NCBI RefSeq assembly: GCF_004193775.1
Contig: NC_041019.1
Location: 10,650,204 to 10,714,203 of the forward strand
DNA: 64,000 nucleotides
Origin: Glycine soja
Taxonomy: Eukaryota > Streptophyta > Magnoliopsida > Fabales > Fabaceae
Reading direction: 5' to 3'
The notes under the pieces are model-generated. The model did not search any database. It saw only the letters and a list, made by a program, of their open reading frames with translations, and was not told the origin of the DNA. Shown piece by piece: positions 10,571 through 64,000 of this stretch. Each line of letters starts with the position of its first letter. The stretch's first letter is position 1. Made by a program: the position numbers and the translations under genes.

Positions 10571-13500
10571 ATGTCGCCTAGTTTCGTCTTCGATCCTCCT
10601 AGCGACGAAGAAATCGAACACTCTGAACACGAAGAAGAAGAAGAATCCGAAGAAGAACCAGAGTCAGGATCAGGAACAGGATCAGAATCAGAGTCAGAAG
10701 GAGAAGGAGAAGAAGAAGAAGGGCACGAAGAAGCGCGGGTTCCGAAGAAGAAGAAGAAGAAAACGCAGTCTCCATGGGACTTTGCTAAATACACGGAATC
10801 AGTGGCGGAGGAACACGCTCGCAGGAGCACAACCTCGGTCGACGAGAAAATCTCCAAAGCACTCAAACAACGTTCCACGCCGCTCGTTGCTGAGCTTGAC
10901 CACAGCTCCGAGTCCGAACCTGATGAACAAGTAGTTGTTGGGTTTTCGTTTTCTTTTTTCGTGCATTCGTATACCCTTTTGGGTTTTTACTCATACACGA
11001 TAGGAAAAAAATGTTTTTTTTAATTATTTATTTTTTGGGATTGTTGGGAAGGGTTATAGAAGAAGTTCTTCTTTTTATTTAGGATAGAGAAAGTGTTCAT
11101 TTGATTCAAAATGTTGTTTTTGTTAGTTCTATGTTGTTGGGTTTGTTTTGGGAGATCAGAGAAGGGGGCTGTTGGGTTTGTTCCAGAGGTTGTTTTTTTA
11201 GTTAAATATAAAAATAGTCTTTTTTAAATATTTTAAAAATTGCTTATGTATTTATTGGGTATGTTTAGGAAGATTATAAGGAGTGCTAGTAACACACTTA
11301 TTCATGTCCTGTTTTTGGTTATTATATCACGAGTGGGGGGGTTATTAACGGAGTGAGACCTATTTAATTTTGTGTTTTCCAATAAATTTCAGCTTATAAT
11401 TGTGTGTTTAAAAGAGTGTATTAGAGAGTGTTTTGCTAATATTTCTCTTGTTTCTAGATTTGCTTTATGATTCATGATAGGAAATAGTGTTTATTTGATT
11501 CAAAAATTGATTTTTTTTTAATTTTTGTTGAATTTGTTGGGTTTGTTTAGGAAGATTATAGACCAGAGGAAGAAGATGAAGAAGAGGGTAATGATGGTGA
11601 TAGCAAATCCTTTTTTGCTCCTTCTGATGGAACCTCTTTCCATGCTGATTCCTTCTTGCAGCTCAATCTGTCTCGCCCTTTGCTCCGGGCTTGTGAGGCC
11701 TTGGGGTATTCTAAACCAACGCCAATTCAGGTTTTTATTTTCAGCTTTGTTTATTTTTTATTTTAATTTTAATTCTCAGCATTATTGATTGTGTAGTTCA
11801 ATGCTATTTAGGACACATTAGCTCAATAATTGACTTAGCTTTATCTTTTGAGTCTTAGCATTACTAGAGTTGCTTATGTTATTTCATGTGTACTGTCCTG
11901 ACAATTTAACTTTTTTTTTTTGGGATTTTGAATTTTGATAATAGGCAGCTTGTATTCCATTGGCATTGAGTGGTCGTGATATATGTGGTAGTGCCATTAC
12001 TGGGTCAGGGAAGGTAATCTCTTTGTTACTTTTCTTTGGGAGTTTGTAAATTTGTGATGCCTTGTGTCTGTGGTTTGGTGCCTGAGTTTTTGTGTGATGG
12101 TGTTTCTTTTAATGCCCCTTGTTCATATCTTGCTATTGTGTTTCTTTTAATGCCCTTTGTTCATATCTTGCTATTGTGTTTCTTTTAATGCCCTTTGTTC
12201 ATATCTTGCTATTGTGTTTCTTTTAATGCCCTTTGTTCATATCTTGCTATTGTGTTTCTTTTAATGCCCTTTGTTCATATCTTGCTATTGTGTTTCTTTT
12301 AATGCCCTTTGTTCATATCTTGCTATTGTGTTTCTTTTAATGCCCTTTGTTCATATCTTGCTATTGTGTTTCCATGCAGACAGCTGCATTTGCACTACCT
12401 ACTTTAGAGAGGTTGTTGTTCCGTCCAAAGCGCATGCGTGCAATAAGGGTCCTCATTCTTACTCCAACCAGAGAGTTGGCAGTCCAGTAAGTATTTTTTA
12501 TAATTGTTCTCATTTTTTCGTCTGGATCATTTTTTTTGTAAAAATATTCAAAATATTTAGTTGTGCTAGGAGGGCAAGTGGTCCATAGATACTGAAATGT
12601 ACCATGAATGCTCTCTTCTTTTATTCAGCTGAGTATGTTGTGTGTGTTGTGCCTACTAGCATATATGGCTTTGCATCATTGCAATGATTCTATGCATGTT
12701 CTTCATTCCCACCTTTGCAAAAGCTTGAACTAATTCACTTCATTGAATATACATGGCTCAGTTCATGGTTGTGCATTGGATGCATCTAATTTTTGCATTA
12801 CTCAATGCCTTTTTATTTATTTAAATTGATATATTTTTTTGTTGTAAATACAAGTACAAACTTGTCGATGCTCTAATTCAATTATGCTTCATTTAAATCT
12901 GTGCTATATGTATGTATATATAATTGTATTCATGTATATACATTACTTCTAGTGAAAAAGGTTGTAGATGTAAAATTTTGAAAGCACTCTTTTCATGATT
13001 CATGTAAATTGCTTTCCAAATACTTATTTCAAATTATTTTTGACAGAGTTCACAGTATGATAGAGAAGCTTGCTCAGTTTACTGATATAAGGTGTTGCCT
13101 GGTTGTTGGGGGTCTGTCAACAAAGGTTTGATCACTGTTTCAGTTTTGTGATGACTTATAATCATAAGACATGTTGATGGTTCAGAATAGAGTTATGTGC
13201 TTCTTGTGATGCTTTCAGTATGCAGTCAGCTGTTTGGGTTTTTTTTGTCCATTGGAAATATCCTCTTCCAGCTTCCGTCTTTTATACAATTCCATCTATA
13301 ATTCTGATAAATGTTGGGTTCTGTTACAATACATTTCCTGTCTGTTTGACACACAATAATCTCTCATTTCCTCTCTAGTTTTAATTTAAATTTGACATAT
13401 TTGAGCACTGTATATGATCTGATCTCTTTTTGTTGATGATATGTATTGCTGTAACATAGCTTTTTGTAACAATGACCTTTCCTCATGGCTTACTAGATAA

Positions 13501-29069: not shown

Positions 29070-29079
29070 GGCATGTGTA
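29070..29079. repeat. Left target-site duplication of the MULE
   Basis: GGCATGTGTA, identical to 40043-40052. Confidence 0.95.
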
Positions 29080-29436
29080 GGCAAATTTACGTAAGAGGGT
29101 TCATTTTACAAAGTATTTACGGGATGGGGTCTGTTTCAAAACAAATAACGGAGGGGGTTTGTTTTGTGGAGGAAACCGCCATTGCCACTGGCGGCATGGC
29201 TCAACCCGCCATTGCCAGTGGCGGCAAAGGAGGAGAGAAGGGTGTATTGCCAGTAGCAGTGGCGATATGGCCACGTAGGTGGAGAGAGGAGGGAGCCGCC
29301 AGTCCGTCTGGCGATATAGCCCACGTGGGACTCGCCCACACGGCTGGCGAGACATGCTTCACGGGCTCGCCCACACGGCTGGCGAGACAGCCTGCTTCAC
29401 GGGCCTGCCAGCTTCGGTCTCGTCCACAGGACTGGG
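29080..29436. repeat. Left terminal inverted repeat of the MULE
   Basis: It matches the complement of 39696-40042. The inner half is GC-rich, with repeated CCGCCATTGCC..GGCGG palindromes, and carries an extra copy of a GGCTCGCCCACACGGCTGGC segment relative to the right end. Translated ORFs in it are artefacts. Confidence 0.93.
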
Positions 29437-29533
29437 TACCTTCCAGCTTTTCAGTTCTGCTCCATTGTTTAGGGATGCAGCAACATTGTTTAGGGATGCA
29501 GAGTAGGATTTGACCATTGTATACGCTTTTCTT

Positions 29534-29543
29534 CTATAAAATA
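29534..29543 (+). promoter_or_regulatory. TATA box of the PMD gene
   Basis: CTATAAAATA about 100 bp inside the left TIR. A 5' UTR exon would end at a donor G|GTAAGTG (29701/29702), and the leader intron would run to the acceptor ending at 30798, five bases before the ATG. Confidence 0.6.
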
Positions 29544-30803
29544 ACATGAACGTAAAACTTTGGATTCACTTCTACCTTATCTTTGCTTTCCTTACCTTTG
29601 CTTTTCTCCGTTCTTAAATTTCTTAGAGTGTTCTTGGTGCTGTTGGTGCTTTGCCTTTGCTGAGTTTTTTTCTTCCATAGTTCATAATTCCTAATTGTCT
29701 GGTAAGTGATTTTTTTAAATAACATTTATATATTTATATTTTATGATTTATATATTCTGTTTGTTAATATTTTTAAAATAATAGGTTAGCTAGATAGGTA
29801 TTGTAAGTTTAGGTTAATTAAGATTAATAGGTATTATAAGGTTAGGTTAGTTATTATTATTAATAAATTAATAAGTATGCTGTTATTAATTTTTATGTAG
29901 TAACGGATAGTTGAAGAGTAGGTTAGGTTAGTTAGTAAAAAAATATTATTTAGTTTGTAGTATATATTTTTAGATTTGTAGTATATATTTGAAGGTTAGT
30001 TTGTATAAAAATAAGTATGCTGTTATTAGTTTGTAGTATGCTGTTATTAGTTTGTAGTATATATTTGACCATGTAAAACATGATTGACAAATGACAATTT
30101 GAATTGCATTGTCTAATTTCATTAATGATCTATTACCAAATGATATGGTTGGCTGGTTTTTATGATGAAAATATTAGTAAAGTTAGAAAATATTTCTTTG
30201 ATATTTTAGTGGTGAATGCATGGAGTTTGTATTTATCACTAATATTTTTTTAAAATTTCTTTATTTATTTTAAACACAACTATTACGAGTTTATTTGTTT
30301 AAATTTATTCATTAAAAGTGCTTATTTTAATAAAATAAATGGATCAGACAAGCACACATTGTAAAAACCATAATTTCAGATCGAGTCTAGGTTTGTATAA
30401 AAATAAGTATGTTGTTATTAGTTTGTAGTATATATTTGAAGGTTAGTTTGTAGTATATATATGATATTTTAGTAAGTCACAGTCAAACGTTCCGACACAC
30501 TTAATATTAGTCTTAGAAATATTAGGCACACACGTAATATTAGATAAGGTAGAAATATTAGGTATAAATTAATATTAGCGTACATATTTGTAAATTTTAG
30601 GTAGACATATATTTTTAGTTTTTATAATATTAAGCATGTTACACGTAAATAAATAATTATGTATAGAATATATTAAAAATTGGCCAGTTTGATTTTTTTC
30701 AAATTTATTGTTATATATTTAATAATGTTTTTATAAATGTGTGTAGTTTAATTTAATTTATATTATCTACAAATAATGTATTATATTTTTTTTTGTAGTA
30801 GCA

Positions 30804-33059
30804 ATGGCATCTTCATCATCATCTTCATCACATGTTAACATTAAGTCTGGCCCCATCGATGCTGATGTATTATGGATGCAACCTAAACATGTTTCAGAAC
30901 ATGTTTGGAATGGGGAAGAAGATAGGAAATTACATATCAGACGAGCTGTCCCCACGTATCAAGGGGAAGAACAAATTCCCGAGCAAATTTTTCCTTTTCT
31001 TCTACAATCTGGTTTCGCTTGGATTATCAAGATGGGGTACTTAAAAATAAATGCCTCATTAATTAGTGCTCTGATAGAAAGATGGAGGCCGGAAACACAT
31101 ACCTTTCACATGAGATGCGGAGAATGTACTATTACTCTCCAAGACGTCTCTGTATTGTTAGGTATAAGTGTGGATGGTTTACCATTAATCGGTCCAACAA
31201 ATCTTGATTGGGCTGATTTATGTGAGGAATTATTGGGAGTCAGACCACAAGAAGATGAAATTAGAGGTAGTGTGGTGAAATTAAGTTGGCTGGCTCACCA
31301 TTTTGCCCAAATAAATAATGACGACGACGAAGAACAAGTACGAAGGTTTGCCCGTGCATGGATATTGAGATTCATTGGAGGTGTCTTGTTCGTTGATAAA
31401 AGCAGTAACAAAGTTTCGCTAAGATACCTTCAATTTTTACGTGACTTTGAAGAATGTGGCAGATATGCATGGGGAGCTGCCGTACTTGGTTTTCTATACA
31501 GAGAGATGTGCAATGCCACCGATTATAAAACTAAATCAATCGGAGGTATGTGCATCTTACTACAAATGTGGGCATGGGAACGATGTCCAACCTTGGCTCC
31601 AAAGAGGACTCCTTCCCAAGTAGAAAATACACCACTGGGGCATAGGTTAGTAATTTTTAGCAGCGTCTTTCATTTCAATAGAATAAATGGTTTTAGCATA
31701 TATTAAATTTTAATCTTTGTAGGTGGCTGCGACGTGGAAACCAACATATCGGCAATGATGATGTGAGAGTTTTTCGTCGCAAGTTAGATATTATGAAACG
31801 TCATGAGGTAAGAAGATGTTATTCTATTTGTAAAATAAAAAATTATATGTGTTATTTTACTAAAATGTTCATAACTATGTTGTTATATGCAGTTTGTGTG
31901 GGAGCCGTACCCATCAACCGTAATATCACTGTTGCCTCCCGTTTGTTTAGTCGGAAGTCTCGCGTGGTACGCGGTGGTGCCACTAATTTGTTTCCAAGTT
32001 ATTGAGTGGCACCAACCGGACAGAGTATTGAGACAATTTGGGATGCAACAGCCAATTCCAGAGTCTCCTTCACAACCCTTAAACATTCATGGCATAACAT
32101 TGAAAGGGAAACATGACGAAAATTGGGGGCAATTGTTCGCCCCAATGATTGATCAGTGGAATAATCGCCATGCATTTAGGGTCGACGCTTATCCCCGACA
32201 AGAAGGCCTATTGAGTTTTAACTCGGACTACATGGTCTGGTATAGGCGAAAGACAAAGATGTTTGTTGACCCAGCAAATGCAAAGACGGCTACATTGGTA
32301 TTTTTAAATTTTTTTCAAATTTTAACTTGAACTTTTATTTAATGATGGCCATTAATTTTCTTACCCTTATAAATGCAGGGTGAAGTTGCGGAGGCATTAC
32401 AATACATGGTGTCTCCTCAAGGGAGGAATACATGCACATTTGATGATCTCGTGCCTTATGTGGAAAAAATTACAATTTTATCCGAAGAGCAAGAGAGAGT
32501 CACTGAGCCAGTGTCACATGGTCCCGCATCAGAGCGTCAATTTCCTGCACAACAGTTTCACATGCTTCAGTCAAGTATTGAAACTCAGGGGATAGACAGA
32601 AGAAGGGACATTGTTGAAGCGGAAGAATATTCCCAACAAATGGCGGAGCGTGGCCATGGAATGTATTACACGCCACAAACATTTGCTGAGTATCCGACCC
32701 AGATGTATCAATATCCTTTTCAGGGTCATCACACTGATACTTCTGCAAGCCAGCAATCGTTCGGTGGTGTTGCGGAAACACAAGCTCATTTTTCATGGCC
32801 CACAATGACCCCTTCACAGCAATATCATGGCCCAATTCCAACACCTAATGCCCCGTTAGGAACACAATGGAATGTACCGGGACAAATACCTAATACGGGT
32901 GACTTATTCGGTGTTGATTTGCGGCACGCATTTTCTGCGGAGGCTGACGAAGAAGAAGCGGGGAGGCATCGGGGCAGAAGAAATCCTGATCGCCAAGCAC
33001 GAAGATGGGATCGACCATGTGGCACATCCTCACGACATCACGGACACCAAAATGAATGA
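30804..33059 (+). CDS. Plant mobile domain (PMD, MAIN/MAIL-like) protein carried by the MULE
   Basis: Four exons (30804-31645, 31723-31807, 31893-32297, 32379-33059) join in frame to 670 residues. A serine run opens the protein. The PMD then spans about residues 60-430, with landmarks GFAWIIKMGYLKIN, LIERWRPETHTFH (90-102), LQDVSVLLGISVDG (112-125), WLAHHFAQ, and after the exon 2/3 junction WEPYPSTVI, VPLICFQVIEWHQPDRVLRQFG and DYMVWYRR. The C-terminus (from ~455) is Q/P-rich and ends in a basic RRxR tail. Databases often call such proteins 'serine/threonine phosphatase 7 long form homolog', but no phosphatase domain is present. Host PMD proteins (MAIN, MAIL1) act in silencing and genome stability. 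The domain is also known from transposons, and its role inside a MULE is unknown. It is convergent with the transposase. No lesion was seen. Confidence 0.9.
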
Positions 33060-33233
33060 TTTGCATGTCTTCGTTTATTAAGCCTTTGTTGTATATTTGT
33101 AATTTGACATTCATGGCGTAATGTATGATATTCAGTTTATTAAGGCTTACTTATGGATAATATTTATGTCGCGTATCAAACTATAATAATCAATGAACCG
33201 TAAACCAAATAAAACTCAAAAACTAACCCCTAA

Positions 33234-33500
33234 AATAAAAAACCTAGCCCTAACCCTAACAAATAAGAACTAACCCTAACCCCTAAAATAAAAATATAAC
33301 CCTAACCCCTAACATGTTCAGAACTAAACCCTAACCCTAAAATAAAAAACCTAACCCTAACCCTAAAAAATAAGAACTAACCCTAACCCCTAAAATAAAA
33401 ATATAACCCTAACCCCTAACATGTTCAGAACTAAACCCTAACCCTAAAATAAAAAACCTAACCCTAACCCTAAAAAATAAGAACTAACCCTAACCCCTAA
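33234..33500 (+). repeat. 107-bp higher-order tandem repeat
   Basis: Units start at 33234, 33341 and 33448 (the last is partial). Each contains CCTAACCCTAACCCTAA, AAATAAAAATATAACCC and CTAACATGTTCAGAAC. The two full units differ at only a few positions, so the expansion is recent. Confidence 0.92.
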
Positions 33501-33507
33501 AATAAAG

Positions 33508-33751
33508 TTTATTTCAACTTCTAAATGTAATTTTATTTCATTAGAAGTACACATTAAAAAAACGAAATTTTATTTCAACTTCTAAATGTAATTTTATTTC
33601 ATTAGAAGTACACATTAAAAAAAACAAATTTTATTTCAACTTCTAAATGTAATTTTATTTCATTAGAAGTACACATTAAAAAAAACAAATTTTATTTCAA
33701 CTTCTAAATGTAATTTTATTTCATTAGAAGTACACATTAAAAAAATTAACC
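33508..33751 (+). repeat. Four-copy 61-bp tandem repeat with internal hairpin
   Basis: Units start at 33508, 33569, 33630 and 33691. Each contains ACTTCTAA and TTAGAAGT about 14 nt apart, an 8-bp stem. A fifth, isolated copy lies at 34602-34660, next to the transposase stop. Confidence 0.92.
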
Positions 33752-34746
33752 CTAAACCCTAAAATAAGAAAACTTAACCCTAACCCTAAAATGTTCAGAA
33801 ATACACCCTAACCCTAAATAAAAAAAATAAGCCTAACCCCTCCAAAATAAGCACTCAACCCTAACCCCTCAAATAAAAAAATTAACCATACACCATAAAA
33901 TAAGAAGAACTTAGCCCTAACCCCTAAAAATTAAGAACTAAACTCTAACACCTAACAAATTAGAACTAAACCCTGACCCTTCAAATAAAAAACTTAACCC
34001 TAACCCCTAAATCATAAAAAAACTTAGCCCTAACCCCTCAAAAATAAGAACTACACCCTAACCCTTCAAATAAAAAAATTAACCCTAACCACTAAAATAA
34101 AAAAATTCCCCCTAAACCCAAAAATAAACAACCTTAGCCCTAACCCCAACAAAATAAGCACTCAACCCTAACCCCTCATAATTAGGAACTAAACCCTAAT
34201 CCCTCAAAATTAAGAACTACACCATAACACTTCAACTCAAATAAAAATAAAGACTAAACCCTAAAAAAAATAAGAACTAAACCCTAACCCCTAAAACAAT
34301 ACGGACTAACCCTAACCATTCAAATAAAAAAATTAACCCCTAACCCCTAACAACTACGAACTAACCCTAACCTCTAAAAATTTTGAAGTTACCCCTAACA
34401 AATAAAAAATAAGGCCTAACCCTACCCCATACAATTATAAAATTAACCCTAACCCTAAAATAAAAAACTTAGCCCTAACCATAAAATAAAAAGAACTTAG
34501 CCCTCACCCTTCAAATAAAAAACTAAGACAAAATACTTAGACACTAACGTTTCTAACTAACGATCAACACCAATGTGACTCAACCTCGATTGATCCACTC
34601 CATTTATTTCAACTTCTAAATGTAATTTTATTTCATTAGAAGCACACATTCAACAAAAAGTAACTGACGATTTCATTGAAGATCAACAAGTAAATACATT
34701 GAACAAAACCTAAAGCAATACAAGTCAGGCATGTAACATACATAAA

Positions 34747-37099
34747 TCAATTAAATGAATTACTCCCACGGTCAGATTGCATTGGACATCGACGCCTATT
34801 GTGCCCTTCAGCTCCACATCTACTACATTTTTGTCGGTGGTCAGATGGTTCGACCCAATCCATCTCATTCCTTATCCTTGTTGATTTTGGCCGACCTTTC
34901 GCACGAATTGTAGTTGGGTCAGGGATTAGTGTCCATGCCTCATCAGAAGGAGGAATTGCCGCTTCATTCCCAAGAGGCCACCACTGTGCGGAGTATGCTT
35001 TTAAGATGTGCTCATTGGTGTAAACAACATCTATATATTGGTAGTAGTTCATGCTCACGTAACCACAAGCTGCAATAATGTGTGAACATGGATAGTGAAG
35101 CGCAGAATACCTTCCGCATTGACAGTAATGGCCATTCAAGTTAACTGCCCATTTTTGTCCGCCACGTTGCGTTATAGGATTGAAGGTCTCCTCTACTTCA
35201 AACCTTGTCGAGTGAATATCATACACGCGAACGATGTGCGAACAAGCTTGTTCTTGATTTTTCCTAAGTTCTGTAACAAGCTTAGAACAATAAACTTGGC
35301 CTTCTCTTAATTGTCTTTGGGCTTGGCGACCACGATCAACAAAGTACTTTCGGCACCTACTATATGTTGACTTGACCAACGCTGTTATTGGAATGCTGCG
35401 ACAATCTTTCAACACCTTATTCACACATTCTGATAAGTTGGTTGTCATGTGACCATATCGTCGTCTAGATGTATCGTAAGCCATGCTCCATTTTTCCTTT
35501 GAGATTCGATCAATCCATCTTGCTATGGCTGGACTCAATTGACGAAATTTTTCTAAGTTTTGATCAAACACATGCTTGCAAGGAGTGTACGCTGCATCAA
35601 ATTTGTTATCATCAAAAGTTGTACATAGACATGAAACTCAAATTAAATTAATGTATAAAATAAACCTTACCCAATTTCTTGAACATCTCTTTTTGTTTCG
35701 CGTTGTTGAATTTGCGATTGAAATTGCTGGCTATGTGTCGGACACAGTACACATGAAAACCGTGGGGAGGTTGCCAACCAAGTGCTTCATTAGCGACAAC
35801 AGACTTTATACTCGCGTGACGATCAGATATTAGACAAATTCCATTCTTATCTGTGACGTGTTCACGCAAGTGGGCCAAAAACCATGACCATGCTGTTAGC
35901 GTCTCGCCTTCGACCACGGCGAATGCTAGAGGAAGAACACCACCATTTCCATCTTGCGATGTGGCCATTAACAGGGTCCCACGGTATTTGCCGTATAAAT
36001 GTGTGCCGTCAACTTGTATGATTGGCTTACAGTACTTAAAAGCCTCCTTGCATTGACCAAATGTCCAAAATACTCTATGAAATTGACGATGTTCGCGACT
36101 CACCCTATTACCAACAATAAAATCGTCATGTAGTATTTGAAAGTAAGAGCCAGGAGAATGATTTTGCATGTGTGTTAGCCATGATGAGAGTTTCGCATAC
36201 GACTCTTCCCAATCGCCATATTCAATTGCAATCGCTTTTTGTTTGGCCATCCATGCTTTTCTGTATGAAACCTTATAGGAAAATTCACTATTTATCCTTT
36301 CTTGAATCAAAGAAATTTTTATTGATGGATCTTCTCTGATCATGCCTGTAATTCAAATAAGTAAATAAAATTACAAATTAAAATAACAAATAACACAAAA
36401 GTAGGATAATATGAACATAAAAAACGTACCTACTACGCAAGTCGCAATTAAATTTGAATCAAGCTTCTCATGGTCTTGTGTCATAGTCATATTTAGACAT
36501 GTGTGCGGTCCACCCCATTGTGACACTTTCCATGCATCAGTTTTTTTGGATAAAATTGCCCTCATATAAAAAGGGCAAGAAGACTCTTCGGTGTTGTTGG
36601 GGCAACAAACAATATATTTGTGTGATTTCGTTTCAACAACCTTAAAACTTTGATGCACCTTCATCACATATTGTTTGAGTGCATTTTTGACCGCATCTTT
36701 ACTGTCAAAATCCATGCCAACATATAATTCTTGTCCAACATTAAAAGTCGTTGGCATGTCCAGACCACAAATGTCCTCCTCGTCTGGATGACTCCAATTG
36801 ATATTATTATAATGGCTAGCATCATTCCAAAATGGATTTTGAATTTCTGGTACACCTAATAATTTATAAAATAAAATCACGTCAACAAACTACTCCTATT
36901 TAGTTACCATTAAATACAATTCTCATAAAAAGATAGATGTATTCAACTAATTTTGCATTTCACAAACATTTACCTTCGGTTGGGTGAACAATTGAAACTG
37001 GTTCAACGATGTCAGTGACTTCATCGTCTGTATCAGATATTCCATCATCACTATCATCTTCATCGAAAGACTCTTCAACGTATGAGTTAGATGCAAGAT

Positions 37100-37133
<34 letters not shown>

Positions 37134-37559
37134 TTCATCAACATGTAAATTGCTTATATTTCTTGGCAGTTCCGACTCATGATGAGATACATTACGTCCA
37201 CATGACGTAACAGAATTTGCAGCATGAAACATAGAACCCCCAGCAACATCCTTTTCTACGTACAATTCTAGAACTGACATTTGTTGTTGTTGTTGAAAAC
37301 TTTCGATCATAGTTTCAACATCTTCGTCATCACAAATTTGCAACGCAACATATTTTCCTGAAACTAAAAATCTACAACTTATGGTAGAAATAATTTCATT
37401 ATTTTCTAACTTTACCTTATCTCCAATTTTTTTTTTCAAAGCATTGAAACTAATTCCGCGTTTAATCTGAATCGCTTTTTTACTGCCTTCAAATATTACA
37501 CCATCATTGTCTTCATATACTCTTCCGTTGAAATACAAGAATGTAATAATTGAATTCAT
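34747..37559 (-). CDS. MuDR-type MULE transposase
   Basis: Four exons on - (37559-36974, 36855-36430, 36345-35671, 35591-34747) join in frame to 843 residues. Residues 1-100 form the PB1-like N-terminal domain common in plant MULEs, followed by an aspartate run (141-153) encoded by ATC repeats. The MuDR/FAR1-type zinc-binding DNA-binding domain is near 235-316 (C279, C289, H313/C315 region). The MULE DDE domain has D450 in QVDGTHL, D512 in LISDRHAS and a probable E617 in TNLSECVN. A SWIM finger (C719, C721, C731, H733) and a CCHC knuckle (C818, C821, H826, C831) close the protein. The length and full domain set fit an autonomous transposase that binds the TIRs and catalyses excision and insertion. 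No stop or frameshift was seen. A 5' UTR intron (39282-37567) is inferred. Confidence 0.93.
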
Positions 37560-37567
37560 GATATACC

Positions 37568-39282
37568 TACATCAACAAAATTAAAAATAATTAATCATAA
37601 CAATAGTCTTTGTTAAAATAAATAATTACTCATACTAATTTTATAATAAAAATTCTAATTAAAAAAATTAATTCACTTAAACTATACCTTAAAATTTTAG
37701 TCTAACAAATAAAATTATTACTTCAATTAAATATTCTGTCGATGATACAAATATTAAATATTTATTTGCTTCCTCTATTAAACTTAAACTACACAAAATG
37801 GAAGGGTTATAAATGAAAGGATTACACTTAAAATTATTTCAGACGGAACATGGCCACCACGCCTACGACTGGTAATATTTGTATCTTCGAAGCCATTTTT
37901 CAGTACTAATTAACTCAAATGAGATATGTTCCGTAATGAAGGATATATCATATATATATATATATATATATGACAAAATTAGTAGGAAAGTATACTCTCT
38001 ATATAAAGGACTGGAGGAGAGACAAATAAGGCCTAATTGTTCTCCATCTCCATTCAATAGTCTCAATGGTTAATTAACTACATGCACCACGTATGAACTT
38101 CCTATGAAAGGCAAAAAAAAAAATACTCGGTGAACAACTAATTTGAAACTTAGTGAGACAAACAGATAAAACTATATACAATTAAAGTATAATAACTAAT
38201 ATTATATATGCCATAAAAACAAAGACATAGAAAATTAGTGAGTGTTAAAGAATTAATTCAACTAATTTTTTTTAATTTTTGGCACTAGTGATCGCTTGGA
38301 CACATAGAATATTCACCTATTATTTTTCGAAAAGTGAAGAAGTATTAGACCTCATCTAGTGCTACTTTGTTGTCTCAATATTTTTCTTATTTACCATAAA
38401 GTATAAAATAATCTATAAATCCAAGTAAAGTTCTTTTAACATTATTAAAAATCAATAAATTACTAATAAATATAGTAACCAAAAAATTGTTATTCTCATG
38501 CTAGTTTTTATGCTAATAAATTTAAATGACGGGACTTTTAAAATTGGTAATATTTTTCTTATTGTTTTTATAATTACAAATCCAATTTCTTTTTTTTAAC
38601 TTATACTAAATTTTATTACAAGTAAAATGAAACTTCCTACTCAAAACAAACCACAAAATACTTAAGAAATAACATCTAATTAGTTTTTGTCTTAAATTAA
38701 ATTATATGTCAAATAATATTTCAGACCCAAAATCCATTAACAAAAAGATCGAATGGAATGATACATAGACAAATAAATCTCTTATGAATTTCGGGATACT
38801 CTTTTATTTAATTAATTTAATTAATCAATTTTTGAAGATTCCGCATTCGAAGGGGAGTAGACTACTCAAGAACTTTACTTTTCATTTCATTTCTGCCTTA
38901 ATTGAGAATTGGATAAATAATTAAGAAAATAAAAAAAAAATATGTCAATGAAATGTTGATTGGTATTTATTGAGAACTTGAGTAAAGAGTAAACCTTTTT
39001 CTTTTAGATTAGAGTTTTTTTTATAGATTTTGAAAGTGAAAACCCTTTGTTTTTTTTATTTGGTATAACTACTTGAGCCGGATGAAAGGAAACCTTCACG
39101 TCCGATTTTGAAAGGAAAGGCTTACAAATAATTATTACTAATAATTTTTAAATTTAACGTCTAATTTACAAAATTAATACACTTAAATTTAAGTTTCAAA
39201 TTTGATTCTAATCATAATATTTGTTACAAAAGGAAATAAAAGAAAAGAAGACTTTATTTAAATAAATATAAAGCATCCTTAC
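37568..39282 (-). other. Inferred 5' UTR intron of the transposase
   Basis: On - the leader ends at a GTAAGG donor (39282-39277) and resumes after GATGTAG (37567), seven bases before the ATG. It is unusually long, AT-rich, contains a (TA)n run near 37949-37970, and holds the organelle-like segment described separately. The second MULE copy has the matching donor at about 63341. Confidence 0.5.
39075..39108 (+). ncRNA. Group II intron domain V-like hairpin, probably organelle-derived
   Basis: GAGCCGGATGAAAGGAAACC followed by TTCACGTCCGATTTTG has the domain V plan: GAGCCG start, an inner stem capped by GGAAAC, a bulge, and a pairing 3' strand. Such hairpins are usual in plastid and mitochondrial introns and unexpected in a nuclear MULE. 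The surrounding ~38690-39120 may be a larger organellar insertion; I cannot place its source gene. Confidence 0.45.
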
Positions 39283-39400
39283 TATATAGAAGCAGCAAAC
39301 TTCAAAATACTCTCTTCAAATGAAACTTTTTCTTCCTCTTCCACACTGATACTCTCTTCAATGTTAAATTTTTGAGTGTTAAGTGTCGTTGGAAGTTTAC

Positions 39401-39410
39401 TCTATTTAAA
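39401..39410 (-). promoter_or_regulatory. TATA box of the transposase gene
   Basis: TTTAAATAGA on -, about 290 bp inside the right TIR and ~120 nt before the inferred leader donor. An equivalent TTTAAATAGG occurs near 63171 in the second MULE. Confidence 0.5.
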
Positions 39411-39695
39411 GAAAATTTACACAAACTGAAGCTACACATGGAACGTTACACGCCATTAAAGCGCATGTCACCTCCTACACCTGCTGCTATTGCATGCTTC
39501 TGAATACATGTTACCTCCACATGCCTAGACCTGCTATTACTGCATCCTTCTGAAGCAAAAATCTGCCCTAACAATGGCCTAGAATTGATAAAATAACGTG
39601 TCCTAACAGTGCCCTAGCTGTGCCCTAGCTGATAAAATACAGCTTTGTCCCGCCAAAACGAAAAGGAAAAGCTGAAATGGGGTGGGAGTGTCTCG

Positions 39696-40042
39696 CCAGT
39701 CCTGTGGACGAGACCCAGGCTGACACAGGCTGTCTCGCCAGCCGTGTGGGCGAGTCCCACGTGGGCCATATCGCCAGTCGGACTGGCGGCTTCAGCTGGG
39801 TGTGTCGCCGTTCCCATTGGCGACACCCTCCTCTCTCCATCCTACGTGGCCATATCTCGCCACTGCTAGTGACAATACACCCTTCTCTCCTCCTTTGCCG
39901 CCACTGGCAATGGCGGGTTGAGCCATGCCGCCAGTGGCAATGGCGGTTTCCTCCACAAAACAAACCCCCTCCGTTATTTGTTTTGAAACAGACCCCATCC
40001 CGTAAATACTTTGTAAAATGAACCCCCTTACGTAAATTTGCC
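39696..40042. repeat. Right terminal inverted repeat of the MULE
   Basis: Complement of 29080-29436. The outer 170 bp have one mismatch. The inner part carries its own palindromic insertion (a TGTCGCCAATGGG..CGGCGACA-type hairpin) that is absent from the left end. Confidence 0.93.
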
Positions 40043-40052
40043 GGCATGTGTA
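40043..40052. repeat. Right target-site duplication of the MULE
   Basis: GGCATGTGTA, identical to 29070-29079. Confidence 0.95.
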
Positions 40053-40081
40053 AGTTAAAATGATGGCTGAATAAATTTTTT

Positions 40082-40895
40082 ATAGGATAAATAGTCATTT
40101 TTATTTGTGAATGAATAGTGTGATGATAAATTCATTTCCGAAAATGAAAAAAATGAGACAAATTTATCCATTTGTTAACTTCCGTGAGTTACTGTTAACG
40201 AAAAAACTTACGTGACACATTCACGGATAAATTTGTCCGCGCTTTACACATTTAAGGACGAAAATAACTATTTATCTAAAATATAATTTAATCTTTATCT
40301 TCCTTCCTTCTTTTTTAATCGTTTACAAGCTTAACATTAGCTTGAAAAAATAGGAAAGCGAGCATAAGTTAGAACAAAAATATTAATTAATAAGCATAAT
40401 CTGTCTATTTCTCTGAAATTTTTAATATGACAATACTTTACCTAAAATATGAGACTCCAACAAAAATGCACAACTATTAAATTAATCTTTACAAAAAAAT
40501 GAAATCCAACTTGATTTTGTTACTACCTAATGTTGTCACAATAGAAATTTCAGAGCAACAGACAACTTATGCTTTATTAATCAATATTATGTTTATTATG
40601 TTTGTTTTTTTATTTTTTAAGTGTTTATTGTAATGCAATGTTTGCAACGATTAAAAAAGAGAGAAATATGAAGATTAAATTATATTTTGGATAAATAATC
40701 ATTTTCGTCTCTGGATGTGTAGAGTGATGACAAATTCGTTGCTGAATGTATCACGTAGACTCTTTCTTTAACAGGAACGAACGAAATTTAACAGATGAAT
40801 GAATTTGTCACACTTTTTTCACTTTTCAAGTCTAAAATTTGAATTTTCATCTTTCGAAGACAAATTTGTCAGCATTTTACATATTCAGTGATGAA
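40082..40895. repeat. Large imperfect inverted repeat (two ~245-bp arms, ~320-bp loop)
   Basis: The arm at 40082-40325 and the complement of 40646-40895 share, in order, AACGATTAAAAAAG, GATTAAATTATATTTT, GATAAATA.T.ATTTTCGTC, GTGTA..G.G.GACAAATT and a TCACGTA block. Either this is one MITE-like element with long arms or two copies of a repeat inserted head to head. No ORF is present. Confidence 0.7.
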
Positions 40896-40919: not shown

Positions 40920-42840
40920 TAAGGTCTGGAAAAAATTGTTATAAAGAAATAAATTTTTAGATTGTTGGGTCTTTGAAAAAGACCCTGTTACAAAAAATTG
41001 GCGTACGGTGCTTTAAGTGGCAAACACACGGTATTCTTTAGTAAAAGGCGAAAAGCTGATTGCAAGCCTTTCATTTTTTGCATATACAATTTACTTCCAC
41101 TTAGAATATTACTCGGCGTGGGCTCGGTCATGAAACACCCATTCATACCCATAAAACCTACCTTTCATCTGTTATATGTTGTCCTAGTCCTTCCTTTTTC
41201 GTATGTTAGGACACCTTTAGTTTTTCAAAGCTTCTTATTTTTCTTTTGTTCTCATCCACTTTCTTTTTCTCTAACCCAAAGTTGTTTAAAATATTATTTT
41301 CATTTTATTCAGCTAGCCTTTTACCTTTTCATTCATTCCAAAATTTGAACATTTGCTCAATTCAATTTTAAAGCTGCATGCTCATTATTTCCATAAATTC
41401 TTTTGAATTTTGTTTTCTACTGGAATTCTTGAGTGTTTCTCTGTCTTGCTTATAGTCTTTCAATCTCTTCACGGATAGACAATTTTTTTTTCTTCAAAAA
41501 TTTCTCTTTTATTTTAGTATTTGTAATTTAATAAAGTCAAGTCATATAACTTGTGTTCTTTGTGACTTGTAGGTTCTTGATTTCTCGCGATTGGGATAGG
41601 CTGAAAAGATGACTTGCGTGTATGTTGGTAACCTTGATTCACTAGTTACTGTTTTGTTCTAACAGTTACCGAGACAAACATTAAAGATGAATTCCTTGTT
41701 TTCAAAGTTATTCAGAGATAGCATAATAGAAGCATTTCCGGGCAATTTTGCATTTTTTTTAAAAAGAAGTATTTACAAATTTAAAGAAAGAACGAGAATC
41801 TTGTACATGTTGGTGTTACAGTGTGTGCTAATAAAACTTGTAAACAAAGCACAACAATGAACAAAGTTCATTTACGTCATACAGTAAGTTCCTCAAAAGG
41901 AGACCGAAAAAGGTAAAGAGGAAAGTTAAATTTTGTTCGTTATTAGTGTATTTCTTACTGTAAGTTCCCCAAAGGAGACCAAAAAACAAAAAAAAATAGA
42001 CCATCTTCACACCACTCTATGACTTGCTCCCCCTTGAACTCAACAACACCCCACTACCAATCTTGCATTATGTATCTCAATCCTTGAAGGCAAAGCGGTG
42101 ACAAGGCATGATTTGCATGGCAAAAACAGCCTTCATGCATGAAAGCTAAGATATTGGTTCAAGAGGGAAGGAGTTAGATTAAGAAGTAGCCATGGATATT
42201 TGAGATAGTACAAGCCGCTATTTGGGAAAATGGACTGATTTTAATTTTGAAGCATGAATCTTGTTTCAACATAGATGAGGATGTAACTGAAGTTTTAATT
42301 GATGATTGCAGACACACCATTTGCATTTACCTAATATTGTTACAGAACAGAAAAAAAATTAAATTAAGATTGCAATTGCAAGGTCCTGTTTTGAACGCCC
42401 TTATACAATAATTGGTGTATGCCACTTTAAGGGTTCGTTTGATTTGTTAAAATGCATGACATTAGTGTAAACAGTTTAGTACCACATCATGTCCTTAATG
42501 TGGGCTTAATATATCAAAAACTTGTTTTTTTTTTTTTTCTTCCATGTACCATAAAAACAAAAGTATTAAGAAAATGAGTACACAATATAGCATAACATTT
42601 AGATTTCAAACATCGTAATAATATGTTTGAGTGTCGTGGTCGCTAGTAATCAATCTTCAGTGCATTTATTTGGTGAGTTTTCATTAATGATACCAAATAA
42701 AACTTACAAAAAGAAGCAGAAAACAAGAGTGATCAAAATATGTTTCTAATACATCAATAACAATCGTTAGTTATGGATTTAGAAATAGCAGTTCAACAAA
42801 AATGTTGTTATCAGCAGAAGTGATACATTTGCATAAATAC
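40920..42840. other. Intergenic sequence, no gene
   Basis: It contains one copy of a duplicated segment (41019-41150). It also contains a short local duplication around 'agtaagttcc.caaa.ggagacc' at 41882-41910 and 41957-41985. No coding region is recognised. Confidence 0.5.
41019..41150 (+). repeat. Diverged direct duplication, copy 1
   Basis: It shares ATTCTTTAGTAAAAGGCGAA, TTGCTTCCACTTAG-like and ATTACT(G/C)G..GTGGG blocks with 42845-43015. A weaker match continues to 41570-41650 versus 43125-43180 (GGTCTTGATTT, GATGACT..GTG, GTAACCTTGAT). Confidence 0.7.
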
Positions 42841-42844
42841 CTTC

Positions 42845-43015
42845 CAAGTGACAAGTACTCGATATTCTTTAGTAAAAGGCGAAAGAATAGTTTGCTTTGT
42901 GATAATCAAACGTTATTAAAGCTAATTGCAGTCCTTTCTTTTTATATTGTAAACAATTTGCTTCCACTTAGTATATTACTGGATGTGGGATTTGGTCATG
43001 CAACAGACACCCTTA
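42845..43015 (+). repeat. Diverged direct duplication, copy 2
   Basis: Counterpart of 41019-41150, about 1.8 kb downstream, with a ~40-bp extra segment in the middle. Confidence 0.7.
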
Positions 43016-53354: not shown

Positions 53355-53815
53355 TCAATGCCATGTAATCACTAACATGTTATGTTAACAATTTTTGTTA
53401 AAAATTTGACAATAAGCTGATGACTAGATCAAATTGCATAGTCAAAAAAGTTAGAGAATTAAAGTATATTTTGGTCCTTAGTGTTATGTCAACAAGTATC
53501 AAACTCTCATGCAGTTTGTATTGTTAGCATGTTAGCAAATTAATGTCATGTAATTACTAACATGTTCTGTTAACAATTTTTGTTAAATATTTGACAATAA
53601 ACTAATGAACATATCAAATTGCACACTCAAAAAAATGAGAAAAAGAAAAGTATATTTTGGCACTTGTGTTATGTCAACAAGTTTCAAACTATCATGTTGT
53701 TTGTCTTGTTAGCAAATCAACGTTATGTAATTACTAACCTGCTATGTTAACATTACTATATCAAATTGCACAATAAAAAATATGAGAGAATAAAAATATA
53801 TTTAAACATTTTTGT
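53355..53815 (+). repeat. Tandem array of ~175-bp repeats (about 2.6 copies)
   Basis: Units restart near 53480 and 53660 with TTTTGG..(C)TTGTGTTATGTCAACAAG. Each includes a TAATTACTAAC.TG..(A)TGTTAACA block. Confidence 0.75.
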
Positions 53816-62592: not shown

Positions 62593-64000
62593 GGCAAATT
62601 TACGACAGAAAGTTACTTTTATAAATTATTTATCAATCAGGGTCTGGTTTCAAAGTATCTACAAAGGGGGTTTGTTTTTCCATGGATGTCGTTAGCTGCG
62701 TTGACGAGATAGCTCTGCCGCCATCTCCAATGACGAGAACATTGCTGACCTGGAAGGGTGCCACCGAGAGGAATGGCGAGACCAGTGATGCCACCATTCA
62801 CAATGGCGAGAACCTTGTTGACCTGGAGTGCTACAGACGTGTGTCGCCAGCACCAATTGCGGCAAGTACTCCACGTAGGCAAGCCGCCAACAGCAATGGC
62901 GGGACATGCTAACAAAAGCAATCCTGCCATTGCTTCCTACGAGATAGGTTAGGGCACTGTTCATGATGCATGGTAAGGCTGAACCATTGTTCGTGATGCA
63001 GGCTAGGGCTGAAAGGCTAGAGTTGTAGATGTGTTCACATGCATTGCAGCTGTGCAAGGATCACATGCATACAGTGTGGCTTGCAGAGGATCACATGTAT
63101 GGTTAAATGGCAGATGACTTCGGGGAAATTTTGCATGCTTTAATAATGGCCAGACTGTGTGTAATTTTTGTTTAAATAGGAGCATGATATAACTTCAAAT
63201 TTCACAACATTTTGAAGCAAGAGAGAAAGAAAGAAACTGGTTTGAAGAAAGAAAGAAAAGGTTGAAACACACTTTGTTTGAAGTTTGTTTGAAGTTTGAA
63301 GTTTGTTCATTCCATCTTCAACTTCAAAGTTCTATTGAAAGTAAGGATTTTTTGTATTTATTTTAAGGAACAAAATTTTATTGAGTCAAAATTTTAGAAG
63401 CATTATTTCATGCTGTTTCAACTTAATTTTTTTAATAATTTGTATAATTTACAATTTATTTATTTTGAAGTAATAAATTTTGTGGTTTGAATCAAATTTG
63501 AAGCTGAAATTTAAGTGTAGTAATTTTTAGAATTAGATTTTGTATTTGAAAATTATTACCACTAATTATTTGAAATAGGTTTTTGTGTCTGAAATTTTTT
63601 TAAGTGTAACTCTTCCATGTATAAGCCTTTGTTGAAGGTATTTCAGCCTTAAGAATATTTATATGTGATAGTTGCTGATTTTGAAGTTGAGGAATTTTTC
63701 AAAAATTATTGAATTAGAGTAATAATTTTTTTTTAGAATAAAGTATGAATGTCCAGTTTAAGTTTAATAGAGCAAGCAAATAATTTTTTTTTATTTATAT
63801 GAGTGACAAAATATTAGTTGAAGTAATAAATTTTTTTGTTAGACTAAAAATTGAAGGTAAAGTTTAAGTGTAATAATTTTTGGAATTAGAATTGTTATTT
63901 TAAAATTGTTATGAGTAATTATTTGTAAGCGTCTTTGTTCATGGTTTTTGTGGCTTAGAAATTTGACGTGTGACCCTTCGGGTTATAAGCTTTTGTTGAT
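62593..64000. mobile_element. Left end of a second, diverged MULE of the same family (runs off the window)
   Basis: It starts GGCAAATTTACG, the same terminus as the MULE at 29080. It then follows the same order: GGGTCTG-TTTCAAA, AAAGGGGGTTTGTTTTT, and a GC-rich zone of AATGGCGAGA/GCGGCAAG/CGCCA motifs to about 62910. Inside, a TTTAAATAGG TATA box (~63171) and a leader ending at GTAAGGAT (~63341) parallel the transposase-side end of the first MULE. A rightward transposase gene may therefore lie beyond 64000. ORFs in the TIR are artefacts. Confidence 0.72.

Follow-up and report, generated by a model that had tools for sequence, protein, structure and literature searches.

An autonomous-looking, recently transposed Mutator-like element of Glycine soja with a plant mobile domain gene antisense to its transposase gene

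Introduction

Several groups of plant Mutator-like elements (MULEs), MUDRAVI2 and MUDR among them, are described by Dupeyron et al. (2019; PMC6446971) as carrying a gene for the plant mobile domain (PMD), often in antisense orientation, and soybean is named there as a host of the MUDR group. The capture of PMD by MULEs of grasses and Amborella in the form of transposase fusions was reported by Ikeda et al. (2017; PMC5418596), who speculatively proposed an anti-silencing role for it, and a review restates this counter-silencing idea (PMC8616336). According to Nicolau et al. (2020; PMC7156037), eudicots hold mainly genic PMD-C. The Arabidopsis VANDAL/Hiun element is described as encoding VANC, a sequence-specific anti-silencing protein whose target tandem repeats diverge fast (PMC10398659). 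Here, we analyze a 64,000-nucleotide stretch of the Glycine soja genome (contig NC_041019.1, positions 10,650,204 to 10,714,203; hereafter the window, whose own numbering is used throughout), where a full-length MULE containing a PMD gene occupies positions 29080-40042.

The two genes of maize MuDR have a convergent layout, as have those of this element. The second gene of MuDR is mudrB, whereas the second gene here encodes a PMD protein. Apart from this difference, MuDR (mudrA/mudrB) and this element share the presence of two genes, long terminal inverted repeats (TIRs), and target duplications of the 9-bp class (PMC6446971). With the groups of Dupeyron et al., the element shares a SWIM transposase, an antisense PMD gene, 9-10 bp duplications, and long TIRs, a likeness at the level of the features that PMC6446971 tabulates for whole groups. 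The PMD-C MULEs presented in PMC5418596 also carry PMD, but as a fusion to the transposase, whereas here it is a separate convergent gene. With respect to the general picture given in PMC7156037, we find what looks like a large transposon-borne PMD family in a eudicot, the comparison being made for PMD as such, with its clades (A, B, C) taken together. VANDAL/Hiun, as described in PMC10398659, resembles this element in being a MULE with an accessory gene and fast-diverging noncoding tandem repeats; nevertheless, VANC is a reported anti-silencing protein, whereas such a role for the PMD protein is a conjecture. MULEs with an antisense PMD gene were thus known already, and what is added here is a repeat array between the genes, a mosaic of core and shell sequences, and an insert of plastid origin. 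This very family, its array, and its mosaic were not met in the literature searched, which is not a claim that they are unpublished.

Results and Discussion

Structure of the Element

The element has intact ends, is flanked by a target duplication, and contains two convergent genes of four exons each, both free of stops. It can be assigned with high confidence to the MULEs with a PMD gene antisense to the transposase gene, as an autonomous-looking and recently transposed member. It possesses the DDE transposase domain, the target duplication within 8-11 bp, and the (usually long) TIRs that define the MULE superfamily. The terminal arms (29080-29268 and 39854-40042) are inverted and 98% complementary over 189 bp. 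In a gapped alignment, their outer 170 bp contain one mismatch, at position 17 (29096 in the window; A in the left TIR, G in the right TIR and in the closest sibling, C15a), and the next mismatches are at positions 171 and 174. Further inward, the TIRs continue in a modular way as far as 29389 on the left (29080-29389, plus strand) and 39689 on the right (39689-40042, minus strand). The target duplication, GGCATGTGTA, is found at 29070-29079 and 40043-40052 with 10 of 10 positions identical, and by simple arithmetic a 10-bp match at a fixed place is expected by chance about once in 10^6.

Both TIRs are rich in short palindromes, five in the left one (29176-29194, 29206-29224, 29297-29313, 29331-29351, and 29366-29386) and five in the right one (39734-39754, 39772-39788, 39802-39826, 39898-39916, and 39928-39946). 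Each 400-bp end of the element thus contains 5, compared with a mean of 0.78 and a maximum of 4 in 50 mononucleotide shuffles. Across 11 elements, palindromes with changing arms number 2-6 per 400-bp end, the shuffle means being 0.4-0.8 and the maxima up to 4, so that some single ends fall within the shuffle range. The motif CGCCA-N5-10-TGGCG has 7 matches in the window, where 0.01 are expected; six are located in the TIRs of the element and one in a second element that begins at 62593 (see below).

The transposase gene lies on the minus strand (34747-37559), and its four predicted exons (37559-36974, 36855-36430, 36345-35671, and 35591-34747) join in frame at GT..AG sites to encode 843 aa, or 858 aa if the last exon were to use another acceptor. 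The exon joins agree with those of P0122, an annotated Glycine protein of 838 aa (98.3% identity). The MULE domain (PF10551, E 2.2e-15), DBD_Tnp_Mut, and SWIM were detected above the Pfam cut-off, and CCHC and PB1 below it. The protein contains D450, D512, and E617, which are assigned by motif as the putative catalytic triad and are kept in 24, 19, and 24, respectively, of 26 hand-selected relatives of similar length. The 120 listed protein matches, out of 661, are all Glycine-named except for one from Cajanus.

The PMD gene lies on the plus strand (30804-33059), and its four predicted exons (30804-31645, 31723-31807, 31893-32297, and 32379-33059) encode 670 aa, the longest of 4 listed products among 8 splice combinations that passed the filter. 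The plant mobile domain (PF10536) is present at full length (E 1.8e-88, profile positions 1-347 of 347), and this open frame on the strand opposite to the transposase is what distinguishes the MULEs with an antisense PMD gene. P0001, an annotated Glycine protein of 670 aa, agrees in its exon joins and differs at 2 residues. No residue of the PMD protein departs from the columns conserved in at least 80% of 57 relatives, which were selected in the same way as those of the transposase. The protein belongs to the same domain family as the host silencing factors MAIN/MAIL1. The 120 protein matches listed, out of 951, are all Glycine-named, and the matches of both proteins point to Glycine as the host. 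An AlphaFold prediction based on 37 Glycine PMD sequences had a mean pLDDT of 31 and was unusable, no PDB chain matched the protein at E <= 1, and no relative was found in viral contigs searched with the TIR, the group II domain V discussed below, and the PMD protein.

An earlier note on this DNA had described a perfect 10-bp target duplication, whole TIR ends with a single base difference over their outer 170 bp, an 843-aa transposase with DBD, DDE, SWIM, and CCHC, and an unbroken second gene. These claims hold, with the reservation that CCHC remains below the cut-off, and the second gene can now be named as one encoding a full-length PMD without stops.

Many of the transposon PMD genes among the listed matches are named in the sources as MAIN-LIKE or as phosphatase 7 long form. 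In P0128 and P0239, which bear names of metabolic enzymes, the predicted protein also includes a MULE transposase domain. These names are likely annotation errors.

Sibling Copies and Recent Transposition

The genome searched comprises 1.01 Gb in 1,119 contigs, and the counts given here are lower bounds, as only the best candidates were scored. The TIR search provided 40 scored matches, the best of 133 candidates, and we studied a sample of 15 copies, i.e., this element, 11 others from the TIR search, and 3 more with near-identical PMD genes. Both ends are known in 14 of them (the exception is C20), and all 14 are flanked by target duplications of 9-10 bp, 13 of them perfect and one matching at 9/10; the duplication of C9 is of low complexity. 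Eleven of the 15 copies contain both genes, which are convergent in every one, although C9 does not have a proper transposase exon 1. C16 retains an open transposase and has lost PMD save for a possible scrap of exon 1, C2a has only exon-1 pieces, and C18b and C5s have neither gene. Both frames are open in four of the 11 two-gene copies (this element, C17a, C17b, and C20). Complete copies are thus no exception in this family, which weakens the argument that the earlier note drew from completeness, most plant MULEs being degraded or non-autonomous.

A search with the PMD protein gave 4,583 first-look candidates, of which 65 were scored, and in 17 of the 23 top matches PMD exon 1 sits 1.69-2.13 kb inside a TIR. 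C20 is one of the six top matches for which the TIR search gave no such TIR, but it has a TIR of its own. The family therefore looks large, judging from these matches.

The closest examined sibling, C15a, is located on a different contig with its own, different 9-bp duplication, and it differs from this element by 16 substitutions in about 9.5 kb, with the array between the genes and a cluster of 23 mismatches in the right TIR (39725-39791) left out of the count. The coding sequences show 7 differences from those of the nearest sibling over 4,539 aligned bases. With a substitution rate of 6.1e-9 per site per year, the two copies would have split about 0.14 million years ago. A similarly close pair is formed by C17a and C17b, with 11 mismatches over 9,348 aligned bp. 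The description of the element as complete, two-gene, young, and a candidate for activity is in this way supported by siblings found in the same genome.

The identity of the TIRs, which had also been read as a sign of youth, cannot serve for this purpose. In a set of 11 elements, the left and right TIRs are 96-99.5% identical within every one, whereas between this element and other copies the TIRs differ by up to 17%. TIR identity was therefore rejected as a clock, since it is high within elements even where the TIRs of different copies differ by 16-17%, indicating that the ends are homogenized within each element and change in concert.

An alternative to present activity is that the element transposed recently and is now inactive, i.e., that it is intact but silenced by the host and was moved earlier by the transposase of other copies. 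Movement in trans is indeed shown by 850-bp and 2,983-bp relatives, which have no match to either gene and yet are flanked by 9-10 bp target duplications, and plant MULEs are usually silenced. The open frames and the 7 differences in coding sequence leave little time since the movement, an argument that is neutral on present silencing. We consider this alternative quite possible, if a little short of probable. The preferred reading, an autonomous-looking MULE that moved recently, makes the element a candidate for activity on the basis of its sequence.

A Plastid Insert Marks the Lineage

A 373-bp segment between the transposase gene and the right TIR (38743-39115, plus strand) matches a 150,000-base contig at 98%, and Rfam places a group II intron end at 39073-39151. 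The frames flanking the match on that contig read as what we take to be RpoC1, and hence we assign the insert to the 3' portion of the plastid rpoC1 intron, including group II domain V. The insert differs from the plastid sequence by 2 substitutions and 4 indel bases in 376 columns, and AAAAG is common to both sequences at its left junction.

Of 163 candidates for the insert, 40 matches were scored, and among these the full insert together with element sequence is found only in this element and C15a. Apart from those described next, the remaining scored matches consist of the plastid contig and of partial fragments at other places. As the carriers are only two, the polarity of the event depends on the comparison set, and the plastid piece could instead be ancestral, with losses in the other copies and no gain in this lineage. 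However, in C4 and C5 the element sequence runs through the site without the insert, at 17 other scored places the match is confined to element sequence on its right, and the insert is still 98% plastid, so that an ancestral insert appears very improbable. The presence of the insert in two copies at different sites implies that the lineage moved after gaining it, and the sibling pair thus provides a built-in marker for tracking one lineage.

The PMD Gene as a Maintained Part of the Element

Summed over the copies, the ratio of nonsynonymous to synonymous substitution rates (dN/dS) with respect to this element is 0.33 for PMD and 0.32 for the transposase, values that use one common reference and include broken copies; the single values range from 0.17 to 1.65, the highest resting on 7 changes, and one was not computable. 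Over all pairs, dN/dS is 0.34 for PMD and 0.33 for the transposase, and the four intact copies give 0.05 and 0.21, respectively, on few changes. For a deeper comparison, three diverged loci were picked from PMD matches with 78-80% identity in exon 1. They are copies of one subfamily, 92-94% alike over the transposase half, and each contains the convergent PMD/transposase pair, although two of the stretches hold only the C-terminal part of PMD. Between this element and these copies dS is 0.48-0.59, and dN/dS is 0.08-0.09 for the transposase and 0.18-0.22 for PMD, values lowered by keeping codons only at high local identity and, for PMD, covering 103-354 codons. Both genes thus carry a signal of purifying selection in these sequence comparisons, among close copies as well as against the diverged subfamily. 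This signal, together with the convergent pair in the diverged subfamily, argues that PMD is an old and maintained part of the element and not a recent passenger.

MULEs often capture host genes, and PMD could in principle be such a captured gene without any role in the life of the element. Its frame is broken in several copies, and C16 shows that an open transposase can be found where PMD has been lost. Nevertheless, the full PMD domain, the purifying-selection signal at both time depths, and the same convergent position in the diverged subfamily speak against a mere passenger, which we regard as quite unlikely.

For a recently transposed MULE with a maintained PMD gene, the following sequence of events can be proposed. 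Transcription would enter from both ends, which would act as promoters. The DDE transposase would bind putative sites in the palindrome-rich TIRs, move the element, and leave 9-10 bp duplications. The PMD protein would be a helper that has been maintained and that most likely acts on chromatin, so that expression of the element continues, and such a helper role is somewhat more probable than its contrary.

Several observations have to be set against this interpretation. Firstly, at least one frame is broken in seven of the 11 two-gene copies, including C15a, where a stop interrupts PMD near codon 608; an intact PMD is thus not required for the persistence of each copy, as the transposase can act in trans. 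Secondly, transposase residues F7, F534, and R605 depart from columns conserved in at least 80% of its 26 relatives. Thirdly, the selection signal weakens when each unique codon variant is counted once, the ratio of the proportions of nonsynonymous and synonymous differences (pN/pS) being then 0.50 for PMD and 0.49 for the transposase. Finally, no empty site was found with a 1,200-bp joined-flank query among 40 scored of 949 candidates in this one genome; the query recovered both of its own flanks at 100%, and the other matches listed fall in the right flank, none of them across the junction.

Core, Shell, and Intergenic Array

Three copies (C1, C15b, and C2b) differ from this element by 1.2% in introns and gene-flanking sequence (10/855 each) and by 16-17% in their TIRs (Fisher p 5e-17 to 3e-16 for the contrast with the core). 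On the left side, the aligned part of their subterminal sequence is 84-93% identical, with 30080-30329 unaligned, and on the right side most of 37830-38579 is unaligned, one stretch being 89% and the rest 71-74% identical. In C4 and C5 the TIR contrast is weaker (p 0.03 and 2e-5), and most of the subterminal sequence is 96-100% like this element. Since the introns are equally close, coding constraint does not explain the similarity of the core. This mosaic would be accounted for if elements with different ends had exchanged their two-gene core.

Between the 3' ends of both genes lies an AACCCTA-rich array of 1.4 kb (33171-34540), which comprises a 107-bp unit (33223-33506), a 61-bp unit (33499-33745), and degenerate units of 26-28 bp up to 34526. 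It contains 31 of the 33 AACCCTA/TAGGGTT motifs of the window, and all 31 are AACCCTA on the plus strand (overlaps counted). The array is matched in siblings with varying copy number, and the three copies of the diverged subfamily have a similar array in the same place, on the opposite strand relative to the genes. Speculatively, it might be targeted by chromatin proteins or act as a barrier against convergent transcription. A more specific possibility is that the element has its own counter-silencing system, in which PMD would act on the fast-changing noncoding repeats, either the array or the palindromic TIR modules, and thereby maintain expression of the element, the contrast between core and shell being then the trace of an arms race over the targets. 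We consider this proposal doubtful as it stands.

Other Features of the Window

A second element of this kind, more diverged, has its left end at 62593-64000 and extends beyond the window; its TIR is 73.6% identical over the first 86 bp, and subterminal matches are found at 63431-63924. The right flank of the MULE contains, at 40070-40650, a dispersed, partly palindromic/inverted repeat with many genome copies at 72-80%. A match to the U5 spliceosomal RNA, which may be a gene or a pseudogene, is located on the minus strand at 42792-42915 (43.2 bits, the Rfam cut-off being 40). There are also a young tandem array at 12100-12372 (38-bp unit, 7.2 copies, 99% matches) and a 185-bp unit repeated 1.9 times at 53357-53714 (85% matches).

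Implications

An apparently large family in which many genes bear host-like names, such as phosphatase 7 long form and MAIN-LIKE, matters for genome annotation. Moreover, an intact and recently moved MULE with a PMD gene in Glycine offers a concrete test bed for the idea that PMD acts against silencing, in the form in which Ikeda et al. (2017; PMC5418596) proposed it.

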